DNA of 36,693 nucleotides from a virus. Positions 3,833 through 26,508 of the stretch are shown piece by piece (the stretch's first letter is position 1; each line of letters opens with the position of its first letter). A program made the translations under genes and the position numbers. The stretch is from IMG/VR virus record IMGVR_UViG_3300035670_000688, positions 1 to 36,693 of that record; one strand, written 5' to 3'. The notes under the pieces are model-generated. The model ran no database searches. It saw only the letters and a list, made by a program, of their open reading frames with translations, and had not been told where the DNA came from.

Positions 3833-4680
3833 TTAGGCAGGCAAAGCAATAGCAACTGCCGATTTGTCGCGGAGTTCGCCGACACCATACAGCGTATCAG
3901 CAGTCAGCAGCGTGGCTAGGTACTCTTGCTTGTACTGGGTCTGTACGCGAACACCCAACTGCTCAATCAGAACAGCAAACTCAGGGTGAGCCATAACAGC
4001 AACGCGAGCACTACCAGTAGCAGTGGCACAATTAGTAGACACAAAGACTTTTACGCCATAAATGTCACCAATCTGACCATTGCGGATAGCATCGCCAGAA
4101 CCAACAAAGGCTTGCTCAGTAAAGCGGGACAGACCAAGCAGCGTGTTACGGGCTACAGGAGGAATAACAAGGAAGCGACCATCCATCGGCACATCCTGAT
4201 CGTCCAGGGTCTGAATTACCCTACGAATACCTGCGTCAGTCATTGCAGTAGCGTTAGGCGAACCAGAGGTGTACAGAGTAGTACCGTCACCACCGATAAC
4301 AGCCTTGTCATAAGTAGCATCGCCTGCACCGCCCTGAGCCTTAGAAGCCTGAGCCAGAACATCCGTATCGATACGAGTAGCCAGAGCGTAACCAGCGTCA
4401 TCCGTGTAGAAACGACGAAGTGACGACTGAGCCTGAACTTCCGTGATGTCCTCAATCAGACGGCTATACTCATAGTGCTGGTCAATGTTAACAGACAGCG
4501 AAGTACCGCTTTCAGCAATCAGAACAACTTGAGCCTGTGCGGTTTTGCTCTTTGCAGTAGCATTACCACGAACAGGAGCAGGGAAGTAGACTTTATCGCC
4601 TTTCTTACCCTTAAAGTTCATCTTCTTGATAAGGTTTGCAGCTACAAGGTTCTTCTTGTAAGAAGCAATGATTTCATCAG
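3833..4680 (-). CDS. Major capsid protein, exon 2
   Basis: Exon 2 carries the last 282 residues of a 305-aa major capsid protein. The longest ATG-started frame begins only at 4621 (MNFKGKKGDKVYFPAP), but the reading frame continues upstream through DEIIASYKKNLVAANLIKK to the intron boundary at 4681. The segment WSDEIIAxYxxNLVxANLxxKM followed by GKKGDxxxxPAPxRG is the conserved N-terminal region of podovirus major capsid proteins, and the ending GVGELRDKSAVAIALPA also fits. Joined to exon 1 (5281-5350), the splice completes a TCT serine codon. Scaffold lies upstream and a decoration-like gene downstream. HK97-type fold is assumed from the family. Confidence 0.9.
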
Positions 4681-5165
4681 CTTAGGATATTACAATCCTT
4701 TCGACTATAGCTTCCCAAGAGAGATAATATTCTTTCTTGAGCCGTTTCACTTAGTCTGTGCGGGTCACGCTTCATTAGCTTAAGTTCGTCTCGAACTGCA
4801 TTCAACACATCTTGTTGAAGTCTTGTTCCTTTTAAGTTAGTCTCCATCCAGAGACATAACCGAACTTGTTCCCTCTTCAGGAAAAGATGATTTACCACGT
4901 TTCTTAGTACAGGGCAGGACTGTTTATATCCTGATAAAATCCATCCTGTACTATCTTGATGATTGGGTTGTTTTGAAACCCTTTCTTCAAGGTGGCCTCC
5001 AAAGTTCATCTGACACATTACTAGTAAAAACCTACTTGGTTTAACTAAAGCAATTCTTAGCCTTGGCTGGATGTAGAATTGGTCGTTAACTTTGGTGGTG
5101 GCGAGATCAATACATCCTTCGCCATCAATCAATCCTGCTAAATACTTCCAACTTACTCGCTTCAT
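4677..5165 (-). CDS. LAGLIDADG homing endonuclease encoded in the MCP intron
   Basis: 162 aa. Residues 9-17 read LAGLIDGEG, the single LAGLIDADG motif (E16 at the catalytic acidic position), so the enzyme should act as a homodimer. It is expected to cut intronless MCP genes near the exon junction and drive intron homing. The gene has a strong AGGAGG Shine-Dalgarno held in a hairpin just before the ATG. Its last sense codon (AGC) spans the 3' splice site and the TGA stop lies in exon 2, so splicing removes the endonuclease stop codon. The 3' part of the gene also overlaps likely intron core elements. Confidence 0.92.
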   Translation of the reverse strand: MKRVSWKYLAGLIDGEGCIDLATTKVNDQFYIQPRLRIALVKPSRFLLVMCQMNFGGHLEERVSKQPNHQDSTGWILSGYKQSCPVLRNVVNHLFLKREQVRLCLWMETNLKGTRLQQDVLNAVRDELKLMKRDPHRLSETAQERILSLLGSYSRKDCNILS

Positions 5166-5280
5166 ATAACCTCCTGGTTATGAACTGCGTTGTTGGTATT
5201 TCGTGTTCCCTCTGATTAGCCCTTTCTAGTTGGCTTTCCAGTTATTCAGAAACGGTTTTACTTTGGCCTGTCTTACGATA
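4681..5280 (-). ncRNA. Group I self-splicing intron in the major capsid gene
   Basis: 600 nt. Exon 1 ends ...GUUUGGU and the intron contains GGCCAAA about 15 nt downstream, which pairs as P1 (UUUGGU with GCCAAA) and places the required U-G pair at the 5' splice site. The intron's last base is G, as group I introns require. Near the 3' end, AAGCUAUAGUCG (about 4702-4713) looks like the S element; its UAGUC can pair with GACUA of a GGAGACUAA segment (about 4839-4847) as P7. Splicing joins TGGT to CTGATG and restores an uninterrupted capsid frame. P3-P6 and P8 were not folded by hand. Confidence 0.92.
5166..5181 (-). promoter_or_regulatory. RBS-sequestering hairpin before the homing endonuclease
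   Basis: Minus-strand RNA AUAACC-AGGA-GGUUAU directly precedes the AUG at 5165. The AGGAGG Shine-Dalgarno lies partly in the loop and partly in the stem. Hairpins that hide the RBS of intron endonucleases are known for T4 introns (for example I-TevI), so this may limit endonuclease translation from the capsid pre-mRNA. Confidence 0.65.
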
Positions 5281-5350
5281 ACCAAACCTCGGGAACAAAC
5301 CCTGCTGTTTTAGCCTGACCTACTAGTACGTGATTAGATCCAAGTGCCAT
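5281..5350 (-). CDS. Major capsid protein, exon 1
   Basis: 70 nt from ATG (5350): 23 codons (MALGSNHVLVGQAK...FVPEVW) plus the first base of a serine codon finished by exon 2. The start has an AAAGGA-type RBS (in TAAAGGATATTAATC) a few bases upstream. MALGSNHV and VPEVW are typical of the N-terminus of podovirus capsid proteins. Without splicing this frame would continue into intron sequence and reach TAA within a few codons, giving only a short peptide. Confidence 0.9.
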
Positions 5351-6725: not shown

Positions 6726-7082
6726 TTATTTATTTTTATTACTAATTGCTTTACACATTTCAATAAAAAAAGACAAATCTAAAGTATTTCTAGCTCTATT
6801 AGCACACCAACAAACTAAAATAAAATTATTTTTTAAATAACCAATACTATTATCTTTTCGTTCAATAGATACTAACTTAGGATCTCCTGTGATTGTTGTC
6901 ATATCCCATCCGGTGTATAAACACTTTCCTTCTTGAATTATCCAAGAAGATATGACATCATTAACATCTATATCAAAAGCAAGTCCTTTGTCTTTAGCGC
7001 TTTTTCTTGCGCCTATGACTAATCTATTTAACCTACCTTTTAATGTATTAGTGTACTTTGCTACTTTTTCTGATTGAGTCAT
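6726..7082 (-). CDS. HNH-type (His-Me finger-like) homing endonuclease
   Basis: 118 aa. The core is CLYTGWDM, then SIERKDNSIGYLKNN with CANRARN. This is the same pattern as the HNH gene at 10951-11457 (SIDRIDSSKGYTIGN with RANRIKN). An N-terminal basic region (TLKGRLNRLVIGARKSAKDKG) probably binds DNA. It is a free-standing gene inserted between portal and the small head genes and has its own promoter (7105-7133). No Shine-Dalgarno is visible before ATG 7082. Confidence 0.75.
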   Translation of the reverse strand: MTQSEKVAKYTNTLKGRLNRLVIGARKSAKDKGLAFDIDVNDVISSWIIQEGKCLYTGWDMTTITGDPKLVSIERKDNSIGYLKNNFILVCWCANRARNTLDLSFFIEMCKAISNKNK

Positions 7083-10933: not shown

Positions 10934-10962
10934 ATTGTAGCATATTTTTATTATAACTGCAA
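10934..10962 (-). promoter_or_regulatory. Sigma70 promoter for the terminase/late operon, TTGCAG-17-TACAAT
   Basis: Minus strand -35 TTGCAG (10957-10962) and -10 TACAAT (10934-10939) with a 17-nt spacer. The -35 overlaps the last codons and stop of the HNH gene (10951). It points at terminase small, giving a ~130-nt leader that contains the TAATGATCATTA palindrome. Confidence 0.75.
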
Positions 10963-11457
10963 GTTATTTTTTGTTAAGTGTTCCATGTACTTTGCAATCT
11001 TCATTAATTCTTCAGGAGTAGAATCATTTTTTATTCTGTTTGCTCTCCAAGAAATTATCTGTATATTACCTATTGTATAGCCCTTACTACTGTCTATTCT
11101 GTCTATCGAAGGAGAATTATCTGTTCTAGTCCATCCTGATTTCTTTACTCCATCATAGTTAAGAGTTAAACCAAGTATAGGACAAACATCTGGTATTTCT
11201 AATGTTTCAATAAACTTTAACTTCTCTGCTCTTGGAATCTTTTTATTAGTAAGCATTCTATTTAACCAGAATGCTTTAGGAGGTTTATCTTTTAAATAGT
11301 TCTTTCTTTTCTTTATAGGTGTGTCTATGCCATACTTAGTTAAGATCTGATACATTCTTTGTTTGGTCACATCATATTTATCTCCTATCTTTTCTAAAGA
11401 TACGGAGTTTTTTAGCATTTCTTCTATAGTGTCTAATTCTTCTACCCATTTAGTCAT
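10951..11457 (-). CDS. HNH-type homing endonuclease
   Basis: 168 aa. The N-terminus (EELDTIEEMLKNSVSLEKIGDKYDVTKQRMYQIL) is a helix-turn-helix, the kind of DNA-binding module seen in phage homing endonucleases. The C-terminal nuclease core has CPILGLTL, then SPSIDRIDSSKGYTIGN and SWRANRIKN, followed by a short helix. It is free-standing, immediately before the terminase operon, with its own promoter and a GGAG RBS. It likely cuts related phages lacking the gene. Confidence 0.85.
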   Translation of the reverse strand: MTKWVEELDTIEEMLKNSVSLEKIGDKYDVTKQRMYQILTKYGIDTPIKKRKNYLKDKPPKAFWLNRMLTNKKIPRAEKLKFIETLEIPDVCPILGLTLNYDGVKKSGWTRTDNSPSIDRIDSSKGYTIGNIQIISWRANRIKNDSTPEELMKIAKYMEHLTKNNLQL

Positions 11458-24061: not shown

Positions 24062-25951
24062 ATGGATATTTATCAAGAATTTATTGCAAAGAGCCGTTAT
24101 GCTAGGTTCTTGCCTGAGAAGAATCGTCGAGAGAATTGGATAGAAACAGTAGAGCGTTATTTTAACTTTATGGAAGACCATCTTCTTAAGAATAACAACT
24201 ATGCTTTGACAAGAGAGTTGCGTAAAGAATTAGAGGAAGCAGTAAAGAACCTAGAGGTAATGCCTTCTATGAGGGCTATTATGACGGCTGGTAAGGCACT
24301 GGAGCGAGACAATACTGCAGGGTACAATTGTTCTTATCTTCCTATTGATGATCCTAAAGCCTTTGATGAGGCAATGTATATCCTGCTCTGTGGTACAGGG
24401 GTAGGTTTCTCTGTGGAGCAGAAGTATGTTAATCAATTACCTGAAGTCCCTGATCAATTATTTGATAGTCAAACTACTATCGTGGTTGCCGACAGCAAGG
24501 AAGGATGGGCTAAGTCTTTACGTCAACTCATTGCTCTACTTTACTCTGGCGAGATTGCAAAATGGGATCTATCAAAAGTGCGTCCTGCAGGCCAAAGGCT
24601 TAAAACATTCGGAGGCAGGGCTTCAGGGCCAGCACCACTGGATGAACTATTTAAGTTCACGGTATCGAAATTCAAAGGTGCAATTGGTCGTCGTCTGTCA
24701 TCAATCGAGTGCCATGATATTTTGTGCAAAATCGGGGAAGTTGTTGTCGTTGGTGGTGTGCGCCGTTCGGCAATGATCTCTTTGTCGGATCTTCAAGATG
24801 ATAAGATGCGTAATGCTAAGTCTGGTTCATGGTGGGAACAGAATGGGCAACGCGCACTAGCCAACAATTCAGCCACATATGAGCAGAAACCAGACACTTC
24901 TCAGTTCTTGCATGAGTGGACTAGCCTGTATGATAGTCATTCAGGTGAGCGTGGTATCTTCAGTCGTGAAGCATCAGTTAATCAGGCTAAAAAGAATGGT
25001 AGACGCAATCCTAATTATGAGTATGGTACTAATCCCTGTAGTGAAATCATTCTACGACCATACCAATTCTGTAATCTTACTGAGGTTGTTGTACGCTCTG
25101 GCGATACTGTGGATGATCTTGCTCGTAAGGTCCGTATTGCTACAGTTTTAGGCACTTTCCAGGCTACAATGACACACTTTCCCTACCTTCGTAAGATCTG
25201 GCAGAAGAACACAGAGGAAGAGCGTCTGCTTGGTGTATCATTAACAGGTATCTTAGACAACGAATGGATGGGGAAAGTAAGCGATGAAACTGCACAGAAC
25301 TTGGAACGGCTTAAGAATGTCGCCGTGGATACCAACCTTCAGTATAGCTCTGCTCTCGGGATTCCTCAGTCAGCTGCTATCACTTGTGTCAAACCTAGCG
25401 GTACTGTGTCTCAGCTTGTTGATTCTGCCTCTGGTATTCATACTAGACATAGCGATTATTATATTCGCAGGGTTCGGGGAGATAAAAAAGATCCTCTTTC
25501 GCAGTTTATGAGTAATGCTGGCATCCCTGCTGAAGACTGTGTTATGCGTCCTGAGTCTACTGTGGTGTTCTCTTTTCCTCAGAAAGCACCCACAGGAGCG
25601 CGTACTAGAGAGGCTCTAACAGCTATCCAGCACCTAGACCTATGGATGCAGTATCAAAGGCACTTTTGTGAGCATAAACCTTCAGTAACTATTTCTGTTA
25701 AAGAAAACGAATGGTTAGATGTAGGTGCTTGGGTTTTTAGAAACTTTAACGAAATAAGCGGTATTTCCTTTTTGCCTTGGGATGGTGGTTCTTATCGGCA
25801 AGCTCCTTATGAAGAGTGCACCAAAGAACAATATGAAAGTTTTTTATCCAAAATGCCTAAAACAATTGATTGGGATTCTTTGAACGAAATGGATGACAAT
25901 GTTGAAGGCGCTCAACTTTTAGCTTGTGTCAGCGGACATTGTGAAATCTAA
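24062..25951 (+). CDS. nrdJ: Class II (B12-dependent) ribonucleotide reductase
   Basis: 629 aa, a monomeric class II enzyme like Lactobacillus leichmannii RTPR. Conserved redox and radical residues: C90 (GYNCSY), NPCSE with C326 and E328, FCNLT with C337, and a C-terminal CVSGHC pair (C622, C627), matching C119, C408, E410, C419, C731 and C736 of that enzyme. It reduces ribonucleotides to deoxyribonucleotides using adenosylcobalamin, without oxygen or a second subunit. It depends on B12 from the host or environment. It overlaps the HNH gene by 26 nt. Confidence 0.95.
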   Translation: MDIYQEFIAKSRYARFLPEKNRRENWIETVERYFNFMEDHLLKNNNYALTRELRKELEEAVKNLEVMPSMRAIMTAGKALERDNTAGYNCSYLPIDDPKAFDEAMYILLCGTGVGFSVEQKYVNQLPEVPDQLFDSQTTIVVADSKEGWAKSLRQLIALLYSGEIAKWDLSKVRPAGQRLKTFGGRASGPAPLDELFKFTVSKFKGAIGRRLSSIECHDILCKIGEVVVVGGVRRSAMISLSDLQDDKMRNAKSGSWWEQNGQRALANNSATYEQKPDTSQFLHEWTSLYDSHSGERGIFSREASVNQAKKNGRRNPNYEYGTNPCSEIILRPYQFCNLTEVVVRSGDTVDDLARKVRIATVLGTFQATMTHFPYLRKIWQKNTEEERLLGVSLTGILDNEWMGKVSDETAQNLERLKNVAVDTNLQYSSALGIPQSAAITCVKPSGTVSQLVDSASGIHTRHSDYYIRRVRGDKKDPLSQFMSNAGIPAEDCVMRPESTVVFSFPQKAPTGARTREALTAIQHLDLWMQYQRHFCEHKPSVTISVKENEWLDVGAWVFRNFNEISGISFLPWDGGSYRQAPYEECTKEQYESFLSKMPKTIDWDSLNEMDDNVEGAQLLACVSGHCEI

Positions 25952-26423
25952 AACCTGTACTCTCTGTAAAAAAGAAAAGGCTCTTTCTTTCTTTAACAAA
26001 AGAGGAGGGAGAGAGCCTGGTTATAAATCTTTTTGTAAACAGTGCCAATCAATAAAAGATGCTGTTAGATACAACCCGCAAAAAAGAAAAGATCAATATA
26101 TGTCAAATCACAAAGAAGAAAAACAAAAACGCAAAGAGTACTACAAAAGAAATATAGATAAATATTATGTTAACAAAGCAAAGCGTAGATCTTCTTTATT
26201 ACAAGCTACTCCAAAGTGGTATGATTCTTTTGATGATTTTGTTTTATCTGAGGCGCATAGCCTATGTAAACTCAGGGAGGGAAGAACAGGAATTAAATGG
26301 GAAGTAGATCATGTTGTGCCACTAAAAGGTAAAACAGTTTGTGGGTTACATTGGCATCAGAATTGGTCTGTTATACCTATGTTTAATAACAGATCTAAAG
26401 GAAATAAACATTCGCTGCTGTAG
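25926..26423 (+). CDS. HNH homing endonuclease
   Basis: 165 aa, GTG start 25926 (or GTG 25941, giving MKSKTCTLCKKEK) inside the RNR end. An N-terminal CTLCKKEKALSFFNKRG and FCKQCQSIKD make a zinc finger of two CxxC pairs. The HNH core is EVDHVVPLKGKTVCGLHWHQN, followed by SVIPMFNNRSKGNKH. This is a free-standing HNH of the kind inserted beside phage nucleotide-metabolism genes. Its TAG stop is at 26421-26423, inside the tRNA-Thr gene. Confidence 0.88.
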   Translation: MSADIVKSKTCTLCKKEKALSFFNKRGGREPGYKSFCKQCQSIKDAVRYNPQKRKDQYMSNHKEEKQKRKEYYKRNIDKYYVNKAKRRSSLLQATPKWYDSFDDFVLSEAHSLCKLREGRTGIKWEVDHVVPLKGKTVCGLHWHQNWSVIPMFNNRSKGNKHSLL

Positions 26424-26487
26424 CTCAAGTCTGGTAGAGTCCTGTATTGTAAACAGGGGTGTGGTGGTTCAAATCCATCCAGCAGCG
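26414..26487 (+). tRNA. tRNA-Thr (UGU anticodon)
   Basis: 74 nt. Acceptor arm GCTGCTG (26414-26420) pairs with CAGCAGC (26480-26486), discriminator G at 26487. D stem GCTC/GAGT, anticodon arm CCTGT-ATTGTAA-ACAGG with anticodon TGT (reads ACA and probably other ACN codons), T arm GGTGG-TTCAAAT-CCATC. The 3' CCA is not encoded. The HNH stop codon overlaps its 5' end. It is the only tRNA I found. Confidence 0.92.
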
Positions 26488-26508
26488 TAAATTAACTTAA
26501 GGAAAAAT

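Follow-up and report, generated by a model that had tools for sequence, protein, structure and literature searches.

A candidate mobile group I intron encoding a LAGLIDADG endonuclease in a phage major capsid gene, one of a family inserted within 10 nt of a capsid sequence motif

The Capsid Gene and Its Interruption

The window, by which we mean the whole 36,693-nt stretch of viral DNA analysed (IMG/VR record IMGVR_UViG_3300035670_000688), carries on its minus strand a major capsid protein gene in two parts. Exon 1 (5350–5281, 70 nt, i.e., 23 codons plus 1 nt) encodes the start of the protein from 5350 on (MALGSNHVLVGQAKTAGFVPEVW), and the interruption follows TGGT at 5281. Exon 2 (4680–3833), which begins at 4680 with CTGATGAAATC, is assigned to the major head proteins by phrog_267 (E = 1.2e-41) and by its relatives. 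Between the two lies an intron of 600 nt (5280–4681). When the exons are joined, the DNA at the joint is GAGGTTTGGT followed directly by CTGATGAAATC, and the protein is MALGSNHVLVGQAKTAGFVPEVW followed by SDEIIASYKK..., 305 aa in all. The terminal intron nucleotide is G (4681) and the final U of exon 1 pairs with a G of the internal guide in P1, as is expected of a group I intron. An in-frame UAA (5275–5273) closes the reading frame of exon 1 after two intron codons, shortly upstream of P10 and P1. Such a stop, after at most two codons, is found in all of the family introns measured (56/56). The intron of contig L240, which lacks an early in-frame stop, is an exception.

The boundaries are fixed by an empty allele. 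The capsid protein of contig L002, which is 90% identical to that of the window, is encoded by an uninterrupted gene, and the two DNAs can be aligned from the upstream gene into the downstream gene without a gap at the junction. An alignment of this kind, with intron-free capsid genes, had been proposed in the initial annotation, which had also predicted the removal of exactly the segment 4681–5280 after TGGT and with a final G, an exon 1 of 70 nt, and a joint that restores the conserved capsid N-terminus; L002 bears out each of these points, and the contiguous N-termini of other capsid relatives agree with the last. Of 80 such relatives compared, 77 have a readable 5′ end, and in 76 of these the N-terminus runs without interruption through the motif F(I/V)PE(I/V)W-S. 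The remaining one (L042) bears an intron of the same family as that of the window. An identical 600-nt intron is present in a second contig (L082/L173).

The Ribozyme Core

A complete core can be drawn for the intron, comprising P1 and P3 to P10 with the endonuclease in the loop of P6; a P2 is not apparent. All core coordinates given here refer to the minus strand. Relatives were gathered via the endonuclease, via exact matches to a 26-nt pattern of the core (74 contigs), and via a pattern of the 5′ core. Across more than 60 related cores, covariation is seen in P1, P3, P7, and P10.

P1 is formed by the end of exon 1, UUUGGU (5286–5281), and the internal guide GCCAAA (5267–5262), 6 bp with U·G at the splice site, just as had been claimed. 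Nine different combinations of P1 strands occur in the family, for example AUCCCU/GGGGAU, AUUCCU/GGGAAU, GUCCCU/GGGGAC, ACGCCU/GGGCGU, UUGCCU/GGGCAA, and UUUGGU/GCCAAA; the few entries with AUUUUU in our tabulation are nearest-match artefacts from T-rich stretches. Directly upstream of the guide, CAG (5270–5268) pairs as 5′ strand of P10 with CUG (4680–4678) at the start of exon 2, and among the introns inserted at the same position as that of the window (site A, below) there is a compensatory change, CUG/CAG vs. CAG/CUG. In P3, CCGUUUC (5255–5249) and GAAACGG (4748–4742) form a helix of 7 pairs that is complete in 43 of 45 distinct cores, with 12 combinations of strands, and several of the pairs covary. 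The strands of P7, GACUA (4756–4752) and UAGUC (4707–4703), are changed on both sides, to GACUG/CAGUC, in three cores, and they lie near the 3′ end of the intron where the initial annotation had suspected them. P3 and P7 together give the pseudoknot of the core, with the conserved R and S strands, that is typical of group I introns. A complete P1 of 6 bp is present in 62 of 64 distinct cores, whereas shuffling the letters of the guide gives 11.9 on average (maximum 21). P10 has a mean run of 3.5 bp vs. 1.5 (maximum 2.9) in shuffles, which the long runs at one of the other insertion sites (site B, below) exceed, and P3 is perfect in 10/10 distinct strand combinations vs. a shuffled mean of 2.9. 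Since the sequences are related, these comparisons overstate their independence, and more weight attaches to the compensatory changes that recur in P1 and P3.

The other helices were drawn by hand or by folding. P4 (CUG 5241–5239 with CAG 5214–5212) and P5 (GCC 5234–5232 with GGC 5221–5219) are joined by A-rich segments, and the motifs flanking them are conserved across the family. The 5′ strands GGG of P6 and CACG of P6a (5210–5202) have their 3′ strands in CCC (4764–4762) and CGUG (4769–4766). The helices P4 to P6 can be drawn (CUG/CAG, GCC/GGC, GGG/CCC) and are putative, the strands of P4 and P6 being so nearly invariant that covariation is uninformative. The hairpin P8 (CUCAAGA...UCUUGGG, 4741–4714) can be folded in all cores; the folding energy of the segment is below −2 kcal/mol in 45/45, with a mean of −9.4. 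P9 is a hand-drawn hairpin GGAU...AUCC (4698–4685).

The profile that is generally used for such introns would have overlooked this one. With Rfam Intron_gpI (RF00028) the window yields 16.2 bits (E = 0.18), far from the gathering cut-off of 50 and for the 3′ half only, the match overlapping the 3′ strand of P7, and at the gathering score there was no match in the window or in the loci of 20 relatives. The initial annotation had named this search as a check, and taken by itself the check would have failed. We judge the miss to be a problem of sensitivity that results from approximately 430 nt of the endonuclease ORF in the P6 loop, which part the two halves of the core. It should be noted that the gathering score of RF00028 is a threshold for detection and not a defining property of group I introns.

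The LAGLIDADG Endonuclease

The ORF in the P6 loop (5165–4677, minus strand) encodes 162 aa with a single LAGLIDADG motif, YLAGLIDGEG, and is preceded by AGGAGG (5175–5170), judged from the sequence a likely ribosome-binding site. That the intron has a LAGLIDADG endonuclease of its own, as had been predicted, is borne out by profiles and by the predicted fold: the protein scores 25.5 bits with PF00961 (cut-off 23.1) and E = 6.8e-17 with phrog_5046, and the closest solved structures in a PDB profile search are I-CvuI, I-CreI, and other LAGLIDADG enzymes. The AlphaFold model has a pLDDT of 89, and Foldseek assigns a probability of 1.00 with a TM of only about 0.45 and a poor rmsd (mostly 15–17 Å), so the match in fold supports the family and not the details of the model.

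The ORF extends slightly beyond the intron. The reading frame passes through P6′, P7, P3′, P8, P7′, and P9 and then runs 4 nt into exon 2 (stop 4679–4677), thereby spanning the entire 3′ half of the ribozyme plus the splice site. The coding region for the C-terminus doubles as P6′, P7, P3′, P8, and P7′, and the nucleotides for KRDPHRLSE are nearly invariant.

Among 50,697 phage records the relatives of the endonuclease have at most 36% identity, and many are located at methylase genes of Gordonia phages. The best relatives from isolates, in the Gordonia phages Whitney, Getalong, Ailee, and Lennon (33–35% identity), are annotated as LAGLIDADG proteins within or beside DNA methylase genes. The window itself contains three further ORFs (6726–7082, 10951–11457, and 25926–26423) that match HNH/endonuclease VII families (phrog_3322, phrog_1035) and are probably free-standing homing-type endonucleases. 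One is found between the portal gene and the gene in the scaffold position, one beside the terminase genes, and one overlapping the end of the ribonucleotide reductase gene. A tRNA-Thr (TGT) on the plus strand (26413–26488) overlaps the end of the endonuclease VII-like ORF 25926–26423.

Related Introns and Their Insertion Sites

The intron of the window is one of many related ones, a fact that had been missed in the initial annotation. They form a widespread and previously unlabelled family, found in at least 74 IMG/VR contigs, which from its sequences seems to be confined to viral capsid genes. All members with readable flanks are in capsid genes, including very divergent capsid types, and when the 56 distinct introns whose ends are defined are removed in silico, the joined exons encode capsid proteins. 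Their lengths are 569–601 nt, many of them not divisible by 3. A search with the 5′ core motif, which overlaps no codon of the endonuclease and could thus find members in other genes or without an endonuclease, gave structured matches that, where the flanks are readable, are all in capsid genes; four further candidates (L272, L273, L276, and L291) proved to be chance matches without a core. The intron DNA was not found in 50,697 phage records or, in two scans, in 84,980 bacterial and archaeal genomes, which therefore give no clue to the host.

There are at least three insertion positions, all within 10 nt of the motif FIPE(I/V)WS. Site B, directly after the codons for FIP, is occupied by 43 distinct introns. 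Site A lies 10 nt further downstream, after TGG-T, and has 12 distinct introns including that of the window. Site C, after the V codon GTT, is seen in L119, and L233 suggests a fourth site between the T and the GG of the W codon.

Contig L233 (the same contig as L280) has what appear to be two tandem introns in one capsid gene (around L233:1830–3400). The first is the one at the possible fourth site, with a P1 of AAAUCU/GGAUUU; the second is at site A, contains an ORF with two LAGLIDADG motifs, and is separated from the first by an apparent exon of 3 nt, GGT. The P1 of the second intron would need a U from exon 1, and this need would fix the order in which the two are spliced. In L132 (8160–9780) a second group I-like core, likewise with a two-motif LAGLIDADG ORF, begins about 50 nt past the first intron of the capsid gene.

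Presence, Absence, and Phylogeny

Capsid genes that are nearly identical can differ in the intron. For example, exon 2 of the L085 group (site A) and of L136 (site B) is 99.8% identical and the introns only 64%, and exon 2 of L083 (site A) is 95% identical to that of the empty L002. The window and L083 share 92% identity in the intron and 82% in exon 2. Empty alleles are interspersed among the occupied capsid genes, and on the capsid tree site A requires 8 changes and all states together 17. In a tree of the introns built after the guide, P1, P10, and the 3′ end had been taken out, the introns at site A form one clade (92/87, a support below the stricter threshold; 93% of bootstraps) inside a clade of A and B (97/99), and 2 changes are needed in all. 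In the tree of the endonuclease protein alone, only 28% of the bootstraps show such a single A clade. Occupied and empty alleles in nearly identical genes, together with histories of intron and host gene that disagree, are what is expected of homing introns, and the sequences point to recurrent homing among capsid genes. They also point to one move from B to A over 10 nt, in which the guide and P10 would have been rewritten, followed by horizontal spread; the direction is taken from the nesting of site A among the introns at site B, and the mechanism may have been a fixed endonuclease target that spans both sites.

Interpretation

The observation of an interrupted major capsid gene is confirmed, and its reading as a group I intron that carries a LAGLIDADG endonuclease is supported by the empty allele, the complete core, the covariation in P1, P3, P7, and P10, and the presence and absence of the intron throughout the family. 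We estimate the probability that this is a mobile intron, with splicing, homing, and a shift from B to A, at about 95%; splicing, cleavage, homing, and the direction and mechanism of the shift are what we infer from the sequences.

The transcript would fold to a ribozyme in which P1 presents the end of exon 1, ...UUUGGU, and P10 the start of exon 2, CUG. Two transesterifications initiated by guanosine would excise the 600 nt and restore the capsid protein of 305 aa. The stop codon two codons into the intron would keep ribosomes off the core, and the endonuclease with its single motif would be translated from unspliced RNA. Acting as a homodimer, it would cut the capsid genes of intron-free co-infecting phages at the stretch encoding FIPE(I/V)WS, in DNA of the L002 type near TTYATYCCTGAAATTTGGTCTGATGAA, and repair would copy the intron into the cut gene. 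In the lineage of the window, an intron at site B after FIP would have shifted 10 nt downstream to A with a new guide, a new P10, and a related endonuclease, and would then have spread among capsid lineages.

An insertion removed at the level of the protein, i.e., an intein or a similar in-frame element, deserves mention since inteins also carry LAGLIDADG domains and 600 nt is divisible by 3. This reading is refuted by the stop codons and by the covariation of RNA helices, and we give it practically no chance: the frame of exon 1 is not continuous but ends after two intron codons, the endonuclease begins in a different frame, with an ATG and a ribosome-binding site of its own, and many of the related introns, at 569–601 nt, have lengths not divisible by 3. 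A reading of the capsid locus as a split gene was also rejected. Somewhat less remote, and still very improbable, is a dead intron or remnant that is not spliced, the capsid protein then being a shortened one translated from the open 262-aa ORF that starts at 4621. The splicing of the window intron is deduced from sequence, and the endonuclease ORF overlaps the 3′ core and might disturb its folding. However, the pairs of the core are all intact and the endonuclease ORF is of full length, the 43 N-terminal residues are matched in every relative whose 5′ end can be read, no relative starts at the internal Met, and the capsid intron of mycobacteriophage LittleE is spliced in infected cells (PMC3706429). 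The two readings differ in what the virion contains: the spliced capsid protein would include the peptide FVPEVWSDEIIASYK, the shortened one would be without it.

With respect to the several sites, a serious if rather unlikely alternative to a local shift within one lineage is that the introns were inserted independently, by reverse splicing or as separate homing lineages. Group I introns are known to relocate by reverse splicing with a change of guide, site A is also occupied by the two-motif LAGLIDADG intron of L233 and thus attracts other lineages, and in the tree of the endonuclease protein site A is not clearly one clade. Against this, the intron DNA outside the guide and the 3′ end forms one A clade nested among the B introns, and all sites are within 10 nt of one motif, as would be expected if the target of one endonuclease served as anchor.

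Starting from the shift of a mobile intron from B to A, a wider reading may be put forward tentatively, to which we concede somewhat less than an even chance. A family specialised in capsids could have tracked the conserved motif FIPE(I/V)WS, which belongs to the N-arm of HK97-fold capsid proteins, across very divergent phages. By moving 10 nt within the same endonuclease target and rewriting P1 and P10, introns at A could replace or exclude those at B in the same allele, so that the target would anchor homing while the position of splicing drifts, and rivals would compete for one site with the intron as a weapon between co-infecting phages. The family offers a test of such intron-borne competition, and its natural sets of alleles (empty, A, and B in nearly identical genes) lend themselves to the study of how group I introns change their insertion site. 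Capsid genes are, moreover, common markers in counting and classifying environmental phages. As the intron splits these genes and is missed at the Rfam cut-off, annotations of such capsid proteins probably lack the N-terminus.

Comparison with Known Systems

I-CreI and I-CvuI are from rRNA introns of algal chloroplasts. The endonuclease of the window resembles them in size, in having one LAGLIDADG motif, in its profile, and in its fold; it differs in sequence, with approximately 20% identity, and in that its function is predicted. I-TevI of the T4 td intron is a GIY-YIG enzyme. Its ORF likewise resides in the P6 loop and extends into P6a and P7, the host gene being a different one and only the last 20 nt overlapping the core (PMC3073962), whereas in the window the overlap takes in the entire 3′ half together with the splice site. 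An early in-frame stop that keeps ribosomes out is present in most group I introns (PMC3073962).

Introns in phage capsid genes had been regarded as rare in the initial annotation. This rarity was overrated, as two cases had already been published. In Lactococcus phage Tuc2009 (mp4, a capsid group I intron as cited in PMC3706429) the major head protein gene is also split early, and an endonuclease gene separates its two coding parts; the endonuclease is, however, an HNH enzyme of about 310 aa, and the first coding part has about 168 nt. In the major capsid gene of mycobacteriophage LittleE (gp13/gp14; GenBank JF937101), splicing was demonstrated by RT-PCR and N-terminal sequencing (PMC3706429). 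This probable group I intron, too, has a LAGLIDADG-related endonuclease, and its splice point, between GG and YAVPPLW, is in the same N-terminal motif of the HK97 fold, about 12 nt upstream of site B when YAVPPLW is aligned by eye with GFVPEVW. It differs in its length of 819 nt, in its host (Mycobacterium), in an assignment to group I that its authors consider tentative, and in an endonuclease that is encoded on the opposite strand and is no more than a distant relative (hhalign 92% over 71 columns). The LittleE intron (L271, approximately 816–1670) may be a case of convergence on one conserved target. In the full-text literature searched for phage capsid introns, mostly outside subscription journals, no description of the family of the window was found. 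Phage capsid introns as a kind are thus already known; new are an intron family seen only in capsid genes and, within it, a relocation by 10 nt that can be traced.
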